From the IMG/VR virus record IMGVR_UViG_3300005288_000532, positions 1 to 24,834 of that record: 24,834 nucleotides of DNA. The stretch is one strand, 5' to 3'. A program made the position numbers and the translations under genes. This DNA comes from a virus. Below, in pieces: positions 4,495 to 24,736 of the stretch (position 1 is the stretch's first letter; each line of letters opens with the position of its first letter). Below the pieces are notes generated by a model that searched no databases, was not told where the DNA came from, and worked only from the letters and a program-made list of their open reading frames with translations.

Positions 4495-4854
4495 GTGGTG
4501 GCATCATTCACGCTCGACGGGGAAACGTACGAGTATCTCCGGCCGGACCCCGGGCACCTTCCGGAGGAAACGCGCTCGTGGGAGTACGGGGCATACCCGA
4601 AGGTCATGGCGAGTGTCCCGCTGGCCGGCGGCCGCACGGTGGACGTGTATGCGGTGGCCGAACGCTGGAACCCCTCTCACGTCCTCGTCGCCTGGGCCGA
4701 CGACGCCGGCCACAAGCACTGGGCATGGGTGCCCGCCGGAAACCTCCGGCGCGTTACTGACTCCGAATGGGACATCGAGGAATACAGGCGCTCTCCCGAA
4801 AAACTACGCCCGATACGCTGGGGCAACCGGCTCCCTGGATTCCTGCCGGCCTGA
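4495..4854 (+). CDS. Hypothetical small phage protein
   Basis: A 119-aa protein of unknown function, acidic and rich in Trp and Tyr, without membrane segments. The GTG start at 4495 is preceded by AAAGGA (4481-4486) at eight bases. Its 5' end lies only 26 bases from the divergent minus-strand ATG at 4468, so its promoter must lie within the other gene's start region or upstream transcription must read in. Codon use matches the phage. The first copy of the 25-bp repeat begins right after its stop. Confidence 0.6.
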   Translation: MVASFTLDGETYEYLRPDPGHLPEETRSWEYGAYPKVMASVPLAGGRTVDVYAVAERWNPSHVLVAWADDAGHKHWAWVPAGNLRRVTDSEWDIEEYRRSPEKLRPIRWGNRLPGFLPA

Positions 4855-4857
4855 ACG

Positions 4858-4882
4858 CCAGGGAGGTTTCAGGGAGAGTCAG
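4858..4882. repeat. 25-bp direct repeat, copy 1 (candidate integrase arm site)
   Basis: Identical at all 25 positions to 5113-5137 (core GGGAGGTTTCAGGGAG). It lies on the lysis side of the tRNA-derived core, about 145 bp away. Perfect direct repeats flanking a core are typical of arm-type binding sites of tyrosine integrases; the role is inferred. Confidence 0.75.
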
Positions 4883-4977
4883 CTCCCGCAGGCGATTTGA
4901 GCGGACTGTAACATTACACGTCTCTACGGAATACTGCCCAAGAACTCTGCGGAACTCGACACGCCCGGAAGGTACGC

Positions 4978-5017
4978 AAAAACCCCGCCAATCCGGGAAT
5001 TATCCGGACTCGCGGGG
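4978..5017 (-). terminator. Minus-strand terminator after the integrase gene
   Basis: Read on the minus strand, CCCCGC (5017-5012) pairs with GCGGGG (4988-4983), enclosing a second hairpin TCCGG/CCGGA (5008-5004 with 4996-4992), followed by TTTTTGCG. It would end the integrase transcript just past the attachment core. Confidence 0.7.
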
Positions 5018-5027
5018 CTGCGTAACT

Positions 5028-5090
5028 TGGTGGGTCCTACCGGGATCGAACCGATGACATCCACGGTGTAAACGTGGGAGTATCCCGCTA
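5028..5090 (-). other. attP core: 3' part of tRNA-Val(TAC)
   Basis: On the minus strand, positions 5077-5028 read as the 3' portion of a tRNA. There is an anticodon stem CCACG/CGTGG around loop TTTACAC (anticodon TAC, Val, at 5070-5068), a T-arm with loop TTCGATC, acceptor strand AGGACCC, discriminator A and encoded CCA (5030-5028). The 5' half does not form a matching acceptor (GGGTCCT would be needed) or a D-stem, although a D-loop-like AGCGGGA is present near 5082-5089. It is therefore a tRNA 3' fragment, as carried by phages that integrate into a tRNA gene and restore its 3' end. It abuts the integrase stop codon. The exact left limit of identity with the host gene cannot be seen here. 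Confidence 0.85.
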
Positions 5091-5092
5091 GA

Positions 5093-6232
5093 TCACGCGG
5101 ACTTTCTGGGGTCCAGGGAGGTTTCAGGGAGAGTCAGGGTGGTGTGGGCGAGGATCAGGGAGTCCATGCGTGCGGCCACGTCCGACAGTTCCTGATCGAA
5201 AAGGCCCGCGTACACGTCGAGGGTGATCTTCGCGGAGGCGTGCCCGAGCATCCGCTGGACCGACTTCACCGAGGCGCCGGAGTGGATCGCCAGGGACGCG
5301 GCGGTGTGCCGGAGGTCGTGGACCCACAGCTCGGCCGGGAGCCCCGCAACGGTCACTGCGGGATCGTAGTCGCGGCGCTTGAAGTTGTTCGACCGCATCA
5401 CCTTCCCCCGCGGCGTCGGGAACACCAGATCATCCCGGGCCTTCCCCTGCAGCCGGGCGCCGAGGCGTTCGGCGATAAAGGCGGTCAGTGGCACGTCGCG
5501 TTCCTTCCCGCCCTTCGGCGGGCCGATGAGCATCCGGCCTTCGACGTCGGTGATGGACCGTGCGACGTGGAGGCGCTGCCGGCGGAGGTGGATGTCCTTT
5601 GTGCGGAGCTCGGCAGCCTCCCCGAAGCGGAGGCCGGTGGTCGCGAGGAACCAGATGAGGTCGCGGTAGTGGGGTTTGATGGCGCCGGCCAGTGCCTCCA
5701 CTTCGGCGATGGTGAGGTAGATGTGCTCCCGTTTGATCCCGGTGGGCAGGTTGACGCCCTTGGCCGGGGTCGCGGTGAGGCGTCCTTCTTCTACGCACCA
5801 GTTAAGGAAGGACCGGAACCGGCCGTAGATGGTGTCGACGGTCCGGGCGGCTTTCGCCATCCCGGACACCCAGGCTTGGACGTCGGCGCGGCGGATGTCG
5901 GCAAGGATCCAGTGGCCCCAGTAGGGGCGGATGGTGGCGCGGACGTCGGACTTGGTTGCGGCGAGCGTGGAGGGCTGGAGTTGGACTTGGGTGGTGACCC
6001 ACTCCTCGAGGAGATCCCGCACGAACACTCGGCCCCGGTCCTGGCTGACGTAGGTCCCGGCCCGCTGGTTGTGCTCCACGTACGCGAGGTGTGCCTTCGC
6101 GGCGTCCTTCACTTCGAAGGACCGCTTCCGCTCTCCCCCGCCCTCGGTCCAGACAGCGCGCCACCGCTTGCCTTTCCCATACTCGGGGGTGCGGGTCCGG
6201 TCCTTCCTCAGCCACCGGTCTTCGACGCGCAT
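5093..6232 (-). CDS. int: Tyrosine-family site-specific integrase
   Basis: A 379-aa integrase for recombination between attP and a host tRNA-Val gene. Residues about 1-65 form an arm-binding-type N-terminal domain (KGKRWRAVW ... FEVKDAAKAHL). Residues 70-160 form the SAM-like core-binding domain, and 172-365 the catalytic domain. Catalytic residues visible: Arg202 (TTGLRFGEA), Lys240 or Lys243 (PPKGGKERDVPL), His305 and Arg308 (HDLRHTAAS), His331 (MLGHASAKIT) and the nucleophile Tyr341 (LDVYAGL). The ATG at 6232 overlaps the stop of the ImmA-like gene (TAATG), so int is probably translated from the immunity transcript. A longer in-frame reading to 6589 overlaps that gene and is rejected. Its 3' end contains repeat copy 2 and abuts the attP core. 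Confidence 0.96.
   Translation of the reverse strand: MRVEDRWLRKDRTRTPEYGKGKRWRAVWTEGGGERKRSFEVKDAAKAHLAYVEHNQRAGTYVSQDRGRVFVRDLLEEWVTTQVQLQPSTLAATKSDVRATIRPYWGHWILADIRRADVQAWVSGMAKAARTVDTIYGRFRSFLNWCVEEGRLTATPAKGVNLPTGIKREHIYLTIAEVEALAGAIKPHYRDLIWFLATTGLRFGEAAELRTKDIHLRRQRLHVARSITDVEGRMLIGPPKGGKERDVPLTAFIAERLGARLQGKARDDLVFPTPRGKVMRSNNFKRRDYDPAVTVAGLPAELWVHDLRHTAASLAIHSGASVKSVQRMLGHASAKITLDVYAGLFDQELSDVAARMDSLILAHTTLTLPETSLDPRKSA
5113..5137. repeat. 25-bp direct repeat, copy 2 (candidate integrase arm site)
   Basis: Perfect copy of 4858-4882, start-to-start distance 255 bp, lying on the integrase side of the attP core and inside the last codons of int. The two copies bracket the tRNA-derived core. 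Confidence 0.75.
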
Positions 6233-6540
6233 TAGCGCAGCTCGTGTCCGATGAGGCGCTGCATGATGAGCCATTCCTCGACGTTGAGGTCGGCGAGGTA
6301 GTGCAGGACGTCGCTGCGGGTGACGTTGAGCGCCATGGCGATCTTGTGGGTGCAGGACTCTTCGCGTGCGGCGTTGAGAAGGGCCCGCGGGGTGATGAGG
6401 CGCCGTGCTGCCCACCGTCCCGCCTGGTCGCACCGGTCCGGGCAGGCCGTGCCGTAGTAGGCGTGACCGCGGGCGTGCATTGCGGCGGAACGGTCGGGTG
6501 ACGTGACGGTCAGGATGGCCGTGGACTTCTCTTTCAACAT
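6232..6540 (-). CDS. ImmA/IrrE-like short protein with atypical HxxxH motif
   Basis: A 102-aa protein. The segment from about residue 20 follows the layout of ImmA/IrrE metallopeptidases: a histidine motif (HARGH, His22 and His26), then an Ala-rich helix ending in RRLITPRALL, then a small helix-turn-helix-like block (HKIAMALNVTRSDVLHYL) and a short C-terminal helix. ImmA-type proteins cleave phage or element repressors. Here the glutamate of HExxH is Ala23, so peptidase activity is doubtful unless another residue substitutes. It lies between repressor and integrase on the same strand, the usual place for repressor-interacting ImmA-like proteins. A 15-bp GGAAC-N5-GGAAC element (6599-6613) lies upstream. 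The family call is by pattern, moderately sure. Confidence 0.6.
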   Translation of the reverse strand: MLKEKSTAILTVTSPDRSAAMHARGHAYYGTACPDRCDQAGRWAARRLITPRALLNAAREESCTHKIAMALNVTRSDVLHYLADLNVEEWLIMQRLIGHELR

Positions 6541-6598
6541 CTGTTAGTGCCCCAAGTCTAAAGTGCCACCACTGTGGCGACGGGATCAAGCTAACACA

Positions 6599-6613
6599 GT
6601 TCCGCAGTGTTCC
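6599..6613 (-). promoter_or_regulatory. GGAAC-N5-GGAAC element upstream of the ImmA-like gene
   Basis: On the minus strand: GGAAC-ACTGC-GGAAC, followed by TAGCTT (6593-6588), a possible -10 box. Same architecture and orientation relative to its gene as the elements at 10106, 14518, 19925 and 23874. Confidence 0.6.
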
Positions 6614-7243: not shown

Positions 7244-7272
7244 TTGCTGAGTTCCCTATTGTTCCGTATAGT
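7244..7272 (+). promoter_or_regulatory. Promoter of the Cro-like gene (leaderless)
   Basis: -35 TTGCTG (7244-7249), 17-bp spacer, -10 TATAGT (7267-7272). The predicted start of transcription, about 7 bases on, falls at or next to the ATG at 7280. No ribosome binding site is present, which fits a leaderless mRNA. Confidence 0.7.
7251..7265 (-). promoter_or_regulatory. GGAAC-N5-GGAAC element, immunity region site 2
   Basis: Plus strand reads GTTCC-CTATT-GTTCC. It occupies the spacer between the -35 and -10 boxes of the Cro-like promoter, a classical repressor position. Confidence 0.6.
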
Positions 7273-8915: not shown

Positions 8916-9094
8916 GGCGCCGGCCGGTCCGGGTCTTCCAGTGCAAGGACGACTGCTGCCTCGTTCGCGTCCCGTCGAAGCGGTTCTGGTACGTCCGCAC
9001 CCCTTCCACCACGGCGACGTGGACGACGTTCGAGGACGCCATCCGTGACGCCGCCGAGTTCGCCCTATCAATCCCCCAGGAGGTAACAGCGTGA
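8912..9094 (+). CDS. Small hypothetical protein
   Basis: A 60-aa basic protein with an adjacent Cys pair (KDDCC, residues 14-15) and aromatic strands. ATG at 8912 is chosen for its ATGA overlap; a longer in-frame reading from 8795 is a shadow. It ends in GTGA with the excisionase-like gene, and its last codons contain that gene's strong ribosome binding site. Confidence 0.55.
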   Translation: MRRRPVRVFQCKDDCCLVRVPSKRFWYVRTPSTTATWTTFEDAIRDAAEFALSIPQEVTA

Positions 9095-9285
9095 GCGCTG
9101 ACGCGAAGGTCTCCGAGGTCGCCGAGCACCTCGGCCTGCACCCGGAAACGGTCCGGACCATGACTCGCGGCGGGGACTTCCCTAACGCGTACAAGACCGG
9201 GCGCGGGAACCAGTCGAACCACATCCGGATCCCCTGGGCCGATGTTGAGGACTACCGGAAGAAGCAGCCGAGGGCCTCACGATGA
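9091..9285 (+). CDS. Excisionase-like HTH DNA-binding protein
   Basis: A 64-aa protein made almost entirely of a MerR/excisionase-type helix-turn-helix: VSEVAEHLGLHPETVRTM, then a wing-like stretch, then IPWADVEDYRKKQ. Proteins of this size and form act as phage excisionases, binding attP and steering integrase to excision, or as small regulators. Its expression in the lytic direction while integrase is on the opposite strand suits an excisionase, though the gene is 2.9 kb from int. The GTG start has the best ribosome binding site of the region, AGGAGG at 9078-9083, seven bases upstream. Confidence 0.75.
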   Translation: MSADAKVSEVAEHLGLHPETVRTMTRGGDFPNAYKTGRGNQSNHIRIPWADVEDYRKKQPRASR

Positions 9286-10105: not shown

Positions 10106-10120
10106 GGAACACTACGGAAC
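10106..10120 (+). promoter_or_regulatory. GGAAC-N5-GGAAC element with -10 box
   Basis: GGAAC-ACTAC-GGAAC, with TAAGTT (10127-10132) as possible -10, 21 bases from the first G. The first half-site lies at the -35 position. It would drive or control the recombination operon starting at 10210. Confidence 0.6.
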
Positions 10121-10150
10121 ATGGTGTAAGTTTGAAGAACAGAAACAAAG

Positions 10151-14433: not shown

Positions 14434-14517
14434 GCGTATTGGGGATGACTAGGTAACTTGATCCAAGAAACGAGTACCGACACGCCAAATAAACACGTAG
14501 TCAGTGCGTAACTCTAG

Positions 14518-19518: not shown

Positions 19519-19934
19519 GGGAGTGGGTGATTGACCTGCCGTGGGCGACTCCACCGGTGAAGCCGAACGGCGGGTATTCGAACCGGTACGCGCACTCGGC
19601 GAAGGTCGCGCAGGCCCGGCAGGTCATGGGCCTGCTGGGCCGGGCGGCCGGCATCCCTCCCCTGGCCCGGTGCGAGGTGTTGCTGACCTGGCATGTCGGG
19701 GACCGGATCGCCCGGGACGCGGACAACCTTGTGTGGACGTTGAAGCCGCTGTGTGACGCTCTATCGTCCGGGAAGAAGCACACGGACCACCCGATCGTCC
19801 GGGACGATACGCCGGAGTTCATGGTGAAGCCGATGCCGGTGGTGGAGTTCGTGAAGGGCCAGAGGAAGCGCCTGAGTGTGCGGGTGCGGGAACTGGACAC
19901 GCCGGAGATAGTGCCCGACTTTATGGAACACTAG
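19515..19934 (+). CDS. RusA-like Holliday junction resolvase
   Basis: A 139-aa protein from GTG at 19515. It starts with LPWATPPVKPN (the N-terminal strand of RusA) and contains RDADNLVWTLKPLCDAL (Asp68, Asp70, Lys77, Asp81) and VRDDTPEF (Asp97, Asp98), the acidic and Lys residues of the RusA metal site. RusA enzymes cut four-way junctions from recombination, helping resolve replicated phage DNA before packaging. It ends the replication operon; the last codons contain the beginning of the next control element. Confidence 0.88.
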   Translation: MREWVIDLPWATPPVKPNGGYSNRYAHSAKVAQARQVMGLLGRAAGIPPLARCEVLLTWHVGDRIARDADNLVWTLKPLCDALSSGKKHTDHPIVRDDTPEFMVKPMPVVEFVKGQRKRLSVRVRELDTPEIVPDFMEH

Positions 19935-19939
19935 GGAAC
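19925..19939 (+). promoter_or_regulatory. GGAAC-N5-GGAAC element with -10 box
   Basis: GGAAC-ACTAG-GGAAC, identical over 15 bases to 23874-23888, with TAGGAT (19948-19953) as possible -10. The first half-site overlaps the end of the RusA-like gene. Confidence 0.65.
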
Positions 19940-19970
19940 TTTTGATGTAGGATTGAGGAACAAAGAAGAA

Positions 19971-23873: not shown

Positions 23874-23888
23874 GGAACACTAGGGAAC
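23874..23888 (+). promoter_or_regulatory. GGAAC-N5-GGAAC element with -10 box, leaderless
   Basis: GGAAC-ACTAG-GGAAC, followed by TAAACT (23896-23901). The predicted start of transcription falls at the ATG at 23908, so the mRNA is leaderless. Confidence 0.65.
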
Positions 23889-23907
23889 TTCCTGTTAAAC
23901 TTGCGCT

Positions 23908-24720
23908 ATGGACGAATGCGGCGCGTGCACTGGGGAAACGAACGTCAAGCTCTGCCACGACCACACCACGAGGATTGAGCAGGACCTCGCCGAAACGGAC
24001 AACGTCATCGGCGAACTGCGGGTCACCATGGCGAGGATGGACAAAGGCGCGGCCAGCATCGGGGGCGGGGGCCCGGCCGGCTCCCGCCCACCGATCAATC
24101 TGGACGCCCTCGACCGGTACGAGCAGCTCCGCGAAGTCCTCACCGGCTGGGCGTCTCAGCTCGAGGGCCGGGCGTACCTCGTCCTCGTCCGCACCGAAGA
24201 CGTCGCCTCCTACCTGCTGGCAAACATCGAGAAGGTCCGCCTCGCCGAATGGGCGTACGAGCTCCTCGACGAACTTTCCCAGGCGATGACCGCAGCGCGC
24301 CGGGCCACAGACCGGGCCGCCGACAAGATCAGCCTCGGCATCTGCGGTGCCGTGTTCGAAGAGATCCGCTGCACCGACACCGTCACCGCCATCACCGGTG
24401 CGACCATGGCCCGCTGCCGGACCTGCGGGACCACCCGCAACGTCAAAGACCACCAGGACGACCTCCTCGGCAAGGCCTGGCACGTCCGCGCATCACTCCC
24501 CCGCCTTTACCGTGCACTCCGGGAAGGCGGACACCTCCCCGGCGTCTCCCAGAAGCGGGTAGAGAAATGGGTGGAGCGCCGCAAACTATCCCCCGTCATC
24601 CCCTTCAAGGCCCAGTACACCGCGGCCGCCATCATGGATGCGTACTGGGCGGCGGAGAAGTACAACGCTGAGATGGCCGCCCATATTGAGCAGAAGACGC
24701 GACTCGCAGAAGTTGCGTAG
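23908..24720 (+). CDS. Hypothetical protein with zinc ribbon and HTH-like C-terminus
   Basis: A 270-aa protein. It starts with a Cys/His segment (CGACTGETNVKLCHDH, about 4-19), then a long helical region (20-150). A zinc-ribbon-like stretch CRTCG (about 169-173; an earlier Cys at CTD may contribute) follows. The C-terminal helices (VRASLPRLYRALREGG and GVSQKRVEKWVERRKLSPV) look like a helix-turn-helix. Probable DNA-binding protein, not further recognised. It is alone in its transcript, has no ribosome binding site and appears leaderless. Confidence 0.7.
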   Translation: MDECGACTGETNVKLCHDHTTRIEQDLAETDNVIGELRVTMARMDKGAASIGGGGPAGSRPPINLDALDRYEQLREVLTGWASQLEGRAYLVLVRTEDVASYLLANIEKVRLAEWAYELLDELSQAMTAARRATDRAADKISLGICGAVFEEIRCTDTVTAITGATMARCRTCGTTRNVKDHQDDLLGKAWHVRASLPRLYRALREGGHLPGVSQKRVEKWVERRKLSPVIPFKAQYTAAAIMDAYWAAEKYNAEMAAHIEQKTRLAEVA

Positions 24721-24721
24721 A

Positions 24722-24736
24722 GTTCCTTGCTTTTCC
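24722..24736 (-). promoter_or_regulatory. GGAAC-N5-GGAAC element (one mismatch) over a promoter
   Basis: Plus strand GTTCC-TTGCT-TTTCC. It overlaps the -35 of the promoter at 24727 and shares the 10-mer GTTCCTTGCT with the Cro-like promoter region. Confidence 0.45.

Follow-up and report, generated by a model that had tools for sequence, protein, structure and literature searches.

The question raised by this locus is whether two perfect 25-bp direct repeats, which lie on either side of a tRNA-Val fragment at the 3' end of a tyrosine integrase gene (int), are sites bound by the integrase, or whether they owe their presence to another protein, to the coding of the integrase tail or to chance. 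The repeats are located in the IMG/VR virus record IMGVR_UViG_3300005288_000532, a sequence of 24,834 bases, classed as linear and probably a fragment, which was analysed over its whole length and is called the window below. In lambda-type integrases, the N-terminal domains (N-domains) hold the arm sites, and the core-binding and catalytic domains act on the core. Through comparison of the window with related phages and prophages, the repeats are with high probability assigned as arm-type sites of this kind, in a lambda-type phage attachment site (attP) whose P' arm lies towards int and whose P arm is the outer one. The preliminary description of the window had proposed arm-type sites flanking the core and had named a comparison of relatives as a means of checking it. 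The comparison strongly supports the proposal: a doublet stands on each side of the core across relatives (nine viral contigs and three tRNA-Val lysogens), both arms change in concert at a near-fixed spacing, and their sequence tracks the integrase N-domain.

The 25-mer CCAGGGAGGTTTCAGGGAGAGTCAG occurs on the plus strand at positions 4858-4882 and 5113-5137 with 100% identity and a start-to-start distance of 255 bp, exactly as first described, and is the longest exact direct repeat of the window. In random first-order Markov sequences of window length and the same dinucleotide content (60 trials), the longest repeat reached a mean of 15.0 and a maximum of 18 bp, and in 600-bp random sequences a mean of 9.0 and a maximum of 15 bp; two further exact repeats of 16-17 bp are present elsewhere in the window. 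Within each copy, CAGGGAG occurs twice with an offset of 11 bp (4859-4865 and 4870-4876; 5114-5120 and 5125-5131), and the copy is therefore better described as one of a pair of doublets than as a single 25-bp site. Read on the minus strand, on which int is encoded, both copies take the form CTGACT-CTCCCTGAAAC-CTCCCTGG, with a unit of about 10 bp, CTCCCTG(aaac), repeated at an 11-bp step. The outer tandem doublet (P arm, 4858-4882, minus strand) starts 4 nt past the stop of a convergent open reading frame (ORF; 4495-4854), and the int-side doublet (P' arm, 5113-5137, minus strand) lies within the last codons of int, so that the earlier placement of the second copy in the coding end of the integrase gene stands. 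A search for the doublet CTCCCTGAAACCTCCCTG that tolerated up to 3 mismatches gave no third place in the window. An exact scan of IMG/VR with the first 21 bases of the 25-mer gave zero matches beyond the window, which indicates that the exact repeat sequence is phage-specific.

The tRNA-Val fragment reported between the copies proved to be the attP common core (5028-5077, minus strand), whose 50 bp agree without a mismatch with the 3' half of the tRNA-Val(TAC) of the host; the identity begins at the 5' strand of the anticodon stem and extends to the CCA. It was matched against an intact host tRNA-Val(TAC) gene (L031), whose identical 50 bp constitute the chromosomal attachment site (attB), and relatives are integrated at the same tRNA. 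Analysis of the window with ARAGORN, made on what is possibly a genome fragment, revealed no tRNA gene, as expected for a core that comprises the 3' half only. The integrase itself (5093-6232, minus strand; 379 amino acids) carries a Phage_integrase domain (PF00589, E 1.2e-23) and is composed of an N-terminal beta-beta-beta-alpha domain (residues 1-58), a core-binding domain and a catalytic domain, in which R202, K240, H305, R308, H331 and Y341 are invariant across 14 aligned sequences. In the structure model, the N-domain is formed by strands at residues 2-5, 24-30 and 33-39 and a helix at 42-58, with predicted local distance difference test (pLDDT) values mostly of 85-91 up to residue 50. 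A Foldseek search with this model gave PDB matches to the Tn1549 Int and to the full-length lambda Int (1z1b).

Relatives with a free attP were gathered by integrase and core searches. Both sides of attP were available in nine further viral contigs (L003, L004, L006, L008, L009, L012, L021, L023 and L025) and the int side only in two (L005 and L007); the core of L012 is a different, tRNA-like sequence. In the two-sided sites, one doublet lies 54-60 bp before and the other 195-207 bp after the start of the core. The start-to-start spacing of the arms is 254-258 bp in 8 of the 10 sites, the window included; it amounts to 251 bp in L012 and to 266 bp, one helical turn extra, in L009. The doublets are direct, and their unit varies among phages (CTCCCTG, CTCCCAG, CGCCATA and others). 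Identities between arms average 18.3 of 21 positions within a phage vs 12.4 of 21 between phages, and none of 100,000 permutations reached the within-phage match for 12 phages (1e-5 for the nine IMG/VR phages; 2e-4 without L008). Among more distant phages, Kukla carries TGCCCATGG doublets on either side of its core and Schmidt a 21-bp repeat, GTGCCCAAAATGTGCCCACGC, in the same arrangement. In BIM BV-113, CTTACGT recurs at 11-bp steps past the int stop, seen on one side only because the record stops at the core. Nothing clear was found when the same arm anatomy was looked for in Finkle and Poushou.

Integrated prophages were searched in the family of the genome that holds L015 (Paenarthrobacter nitroguajacolicus). 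Relatives were identified at tRNA-Val(TAC) in three bacterial genomes, with the cores 37, 53 and 35 kb apart. In each of these lysogens, ARAGORN recognised an intact tRNA-Val solely at the P-arm junction, with a terminator-like hairpin behind it. Inside each lysogen, the two junctions carry matching arms (GAAGGACCACAAAAGGACCACAGA, 24/24; CTCCCTGAAAACTCCCTGG-type, 18/22; CCGTACTGAAACCGTACTG-type, 20/22), which differ from one lysogen to another. In prophages at tRNA-Ser(CGA) and tRNA-Leu(TAA), the int end bears a doublet of GTGGGCA, and a triplet of it stands elsewhere, on the same contig at a distance of 15.6, 15.8 and 36.6 kb (G064, G299 and G394, respectively); in G038 doublet and triplet are found near opposite ends of contig 1 and their pairing is only putative. 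As separate observations, the prophage of G101 (L074) bears an extra inverted doublet, TTGTGGTCCTTTTGTGGTCC, about 105 bp past the core, between core and P arm, beside its direct arms, and the same tRNA-Val(TAC) core is present in L014 (genome G002), a record covered by the same family search and titled Sporosarcina beigongshangi REN13, whose organism name looks wrong.

The relation between arm and enzyme was analysed by partial correlation. Arm similarity correlates with N-domain similarity when catalytic similarity is given (partial r 0.62; 0/5000 Mantel permutations), with phylogenetic dependence only partly removed; for catalytic similarity, given the N-domain, the partial correlation is -0.10. 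L012 and L015 have the CTCCC unit in common with the window, and their N-domains are 62-65% identical to its own, as against only 31-40% for the catalytic domain. Within the CTCCC-type arms, Q25 accompanies CTCCCA (L003, L004, L005 and L009) and R25 mostly accompanies CTCCCT (the window and seven others), and L008, with leucine at residue 6, has CGCCAT arms. These links of residues 25 and 6 to the arm unit are put forward as hypotheses from a small sample related by descent.

The position of the inner arm was investigated in 45 integrases, in a zone that covers the 60 nt upstream and the 30 nt downstream of the int stop, a tandem being defined by at least 8/9 matches. An 11-bp tandem is present in 30 of the 45, any other period from 7 to 19 occurs in at most one of them, and none has an 11-bp tandem in three control zones inside int. 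The int-side doublet is entirely coding in 28 of the 35 relatives with at least 7/9 matches. In L009 it is located past the int stop, and in L007, L021 and L041 the stop falls just before or inside it (inside in L007 and L041). L023 shows an ORF of HNH type between int and the P' arm (2119-2736 of that contig) and a different int tail; the HNH ORF terminates within the arm, which encodes its final peptide ...NLPETSLAA. The P' arm of L008 likewise stands apart from int (5724-6300), with about 0.5 kb of other sequence and small opposite-strand ORFs between them; its unit has diverged to CGCCATAAAACCGCCATG and has its match in the P arm. The tail peptides vary freely (LPETS, VGKMWA, VPKTCPK) while the 11-bp period of the DNA stays, and in the integrase of the window the tail (367-379) is modelled with low confidence (residues 367-374 and 376-379, pLDDT < 50). 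A DNA pattern that is kept while its peptide changes, in a tail of low confidence, suggests that the constraint acts chiefly on the DNA. The mutual constraint of protein and site supposed in the preliminary description looks one-way, as L009, L023 and L008 have their inner arm outside int, and the encoded tail appears to be a by-product of the site. No arm sites within an int coding sequence were found in the literature, subscription papers not being covered, and this is no evidence of novelty.

It could be argued from the many wholly coding doublets that the int-side copy owes its conservation to the C-terminal integrase peptide which it encodes and that the outer copy is a duplicated remnant. 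This coding-level explanation of copy 2 is disfavoured by the relatives whose inner arm is non-coding, stands apart from int or straddles the stop, by the peptides that differ freely over a persistent 11-bp period in a poorly modelled tail, and by the outer copy, which is retained in all two-sided cases; it is judged highly improbable. A chance repeat, a target-site duplication or a recombination scar of another mobile element is hardly credible at all. Isolated exact repeats do occur in phage genomes, and the window has two others of 16-17 bp, but the length of the present repeat is far beyond chance, it has an internal 11-bp structure, and the same architecture with other units recurs in many other phages and prophages; the comparison across relatives refutes such an origin. 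Somewhat less remote, yet still improbable, is the binding of the repeat by a different protein. Excisionases, repressors and host bending factors come into question; attP regions are bound by them as well, and two short elements of the window described below, GTTACAGT and GGCGTGTCG, could be sites of that sort. Against this stand the arm sequence, which tracks the integrase N-domain independently of the catalytic domain, the doublets flanking the core on both sides and standing at both prophage junctions, and the location at the int 3' end, which holds across integrases that use different tRNAs.

Several points nevertheless weigh against the assignment of the repeats as integrase arm-type sites. 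The Pfam AP2 match to the N-domain reaches only E 0.0037, below the cut-off. L034 has a different unit (CTTACGT) and the same N-domain type, so that simple correlations between residue and unit are not universal. No arm was recognised in the scanned zone of L010, L035, L039 and L045, and the arms of L004, L006, L021 and L012 are imperfect. For the permutation and Mantel tests, the registers of the arms were chosen by eye, and since integrases and arms share descent, both tests overstate independence.

On the basis of the comparative evidence, the arm-type assignment leads to the following mechanism, in which binding, the place of strand exchange, DNA bending and directionality are our inferences. 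The doublets would be held by the N-domains, and the other two domains of the same protomers, core-binding and catalytic, would occupy core-type sites in the anticodon stem (CCACG/CGTGG). Strand exchange would take place in the tRNA-Val anticodon loop; the predicted overlap region is the loop sequence TTTACAC between these two stem strands, within which we infer the exact crossover position. Arm binding would bridge DNA bends between arms and core and so assemble the integrative complex. Together with a directionality factor, it would decide between insertion and excision, excision being favoured by the small helix-turn-helix protein. Insertion would leave the P arm behind the rebuilt tRNA-Val at one junction and the P' arm beside int at the other. 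The candidate excisionase, or recombination directionality factor, is encoded at 9091-9285 on the plus strand (64 amino acids, helix-turn-helix; phrog_66, E 7.5e-8), and this role is attributed to it from its sequence. Two other modes of lysogeny were considered and rejected. An armless attP of the integration-dependent immunity type does not agree with the arms that are present and with a core 3' of int, away from the helix-turn-helix ORFs. For tRNA-dependent lysogeny, the core has 50 bp instead of about 10 bp, and no tRNA gene was found in the window, a possible fragment.

The region between the core and the P arm contains further elements. A hairpin with a T run resembling an intrinsic terminator (4978-5018, minus strand) is located just 3' of the core; the segment 4970-5030 folds with -36.4 kcal/mol (z -7.0). 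A hairpin of like sequence is present in all aligned relatives and likewise behind the rebuilt tRNA in the three lysogens. With a phage terminator directly behind the tRNA core, integration would swap the host tRNA-Val terminator for the phage one. The element GTTACAGT (4905-4912, minus strand), about 25 bp on the core side of the P arm, is shared variably by relatives and is overlapped by the palindrome TGTAACATTACA at 4907-4918. This palindrome is indeed situated between the first copy and the core, where the preliminary description had noted it; it is peculiar to the window, and its interpretation as a conserved operator was rejected, as relatives retain only the GTTACAGT-like half. A second short element, GGCGTGTCG, is observed at about 4960-4970, also between core and P arm, and is common to most relatives together with the GTTACAGT-like element. 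Both are candidates for the binding of a directionality or bending factor, or for a promoter; a promoter search across attP found none. Elsewhere, GGAACACTAGGGAACTT has seven matches across the window with up to 3 mismatches (6597-6613, 7249-7265, 10106-10122, 14443-14459, 19925-19941, 23874-23890 and 24710-24726), where 0.02 are expected by chance. Two of them are near helix-turn-helix regulator genes, and the matches are possibly repressor operators or stoperator-like sites.

Paired arm sites are a familiar design, known from Cluster K and Cluster J. The Cluster K1 mycobacteriophages CrimD, Anaya and Adephagia have two pairs of 11-bp putative arm-type sites around the core, and shifts of the unit accompany the N-terminal residues 17 and 19 (PMC3203893). 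They resemble the window in the tyrosine integrase, the paired 11-bp sites, the stem-loop terminator between the core and one pair, and a unit that varies between phages along with a few N-terminal residues (PMC3203893). In Cluster K1, however, attP is located 5' of int, with a tmRNA core and an inverted second pair (PMC3203893), whereas in the window it is 3' of int, with a tRNA-Val core and doublets that are all direct, the inner one inside int. The Cluster J phages Omega and BAKA share with the window an attP 3' of int, directly repeated arm pairs of about 10 bp on both sides, and a core formed by a tRNA 3' half (44 bp there) with its left end in the anticodon loop (PMC3706429). They differ in the use of tRNA-Leu, a core about 100 bp beyond int and the unit TGCATAC... 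(PMC3706429), and no systematic link between site and N-domain differences was reported for them (PMC3706429). The attP sites of L5 and Giles, known here by citation and not by sequence, also have direct-orientation pairs of arm sites around the core, as far as the citing paper describes them (PMC3203893). The lambda Int is similar in its three domains with an N-terminal arm-binding domain, and its full-length structures align with the model; it differs in an identity of about 18% in the structural alignment and in unit, spacing and core. Phages of the Fionnbharth type, with tRNA-dependent lysogeny, likewise have a tyrosine integrase, a tRNA attB and putative arm-type sites (PMC10865867), but only about 10 bp of core and a phage-carried tRNA (PMC10865867), in contrast to the 50-bp core of the window and the tRNA rebuilt in related lysogens. 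Beyond the known cases, the inner arm is part of the int end in most relatives, both arms change in concert, and the arrangement is confirmed at integrated junctions.

Arm-type sites have seldom been mapped beyond a handful of model phages, and the locus offers a cheap rule for finding them, namely an 11-bp tandem at the int 3' end with a twin beyond the tRNA core, which held in most relatives examined. An integration vector built on int and attP is predicted to need both doublets, about 280 bp. The C-terminal tails of such integrases should not be over-read. The arrangement may be common to a wide range of actinobacterial tyrosine integrases whose attP lies 3' of int, in which the inner doublet would be written into the last int codons, the tail would be a read-through of the site, and both arms would turn over together, following a few N-domain residues (e.g. 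residue 25, R or Q, with unit position 6, T or A, in the CTCCC type); for this generalisation the chances appear evenly balanced. The relatives provide a natural series of N-domains, each matched to its own site variant, and, if the generalisation holds true, the arm-recognition code would be readable from pairs of enzyme and site.
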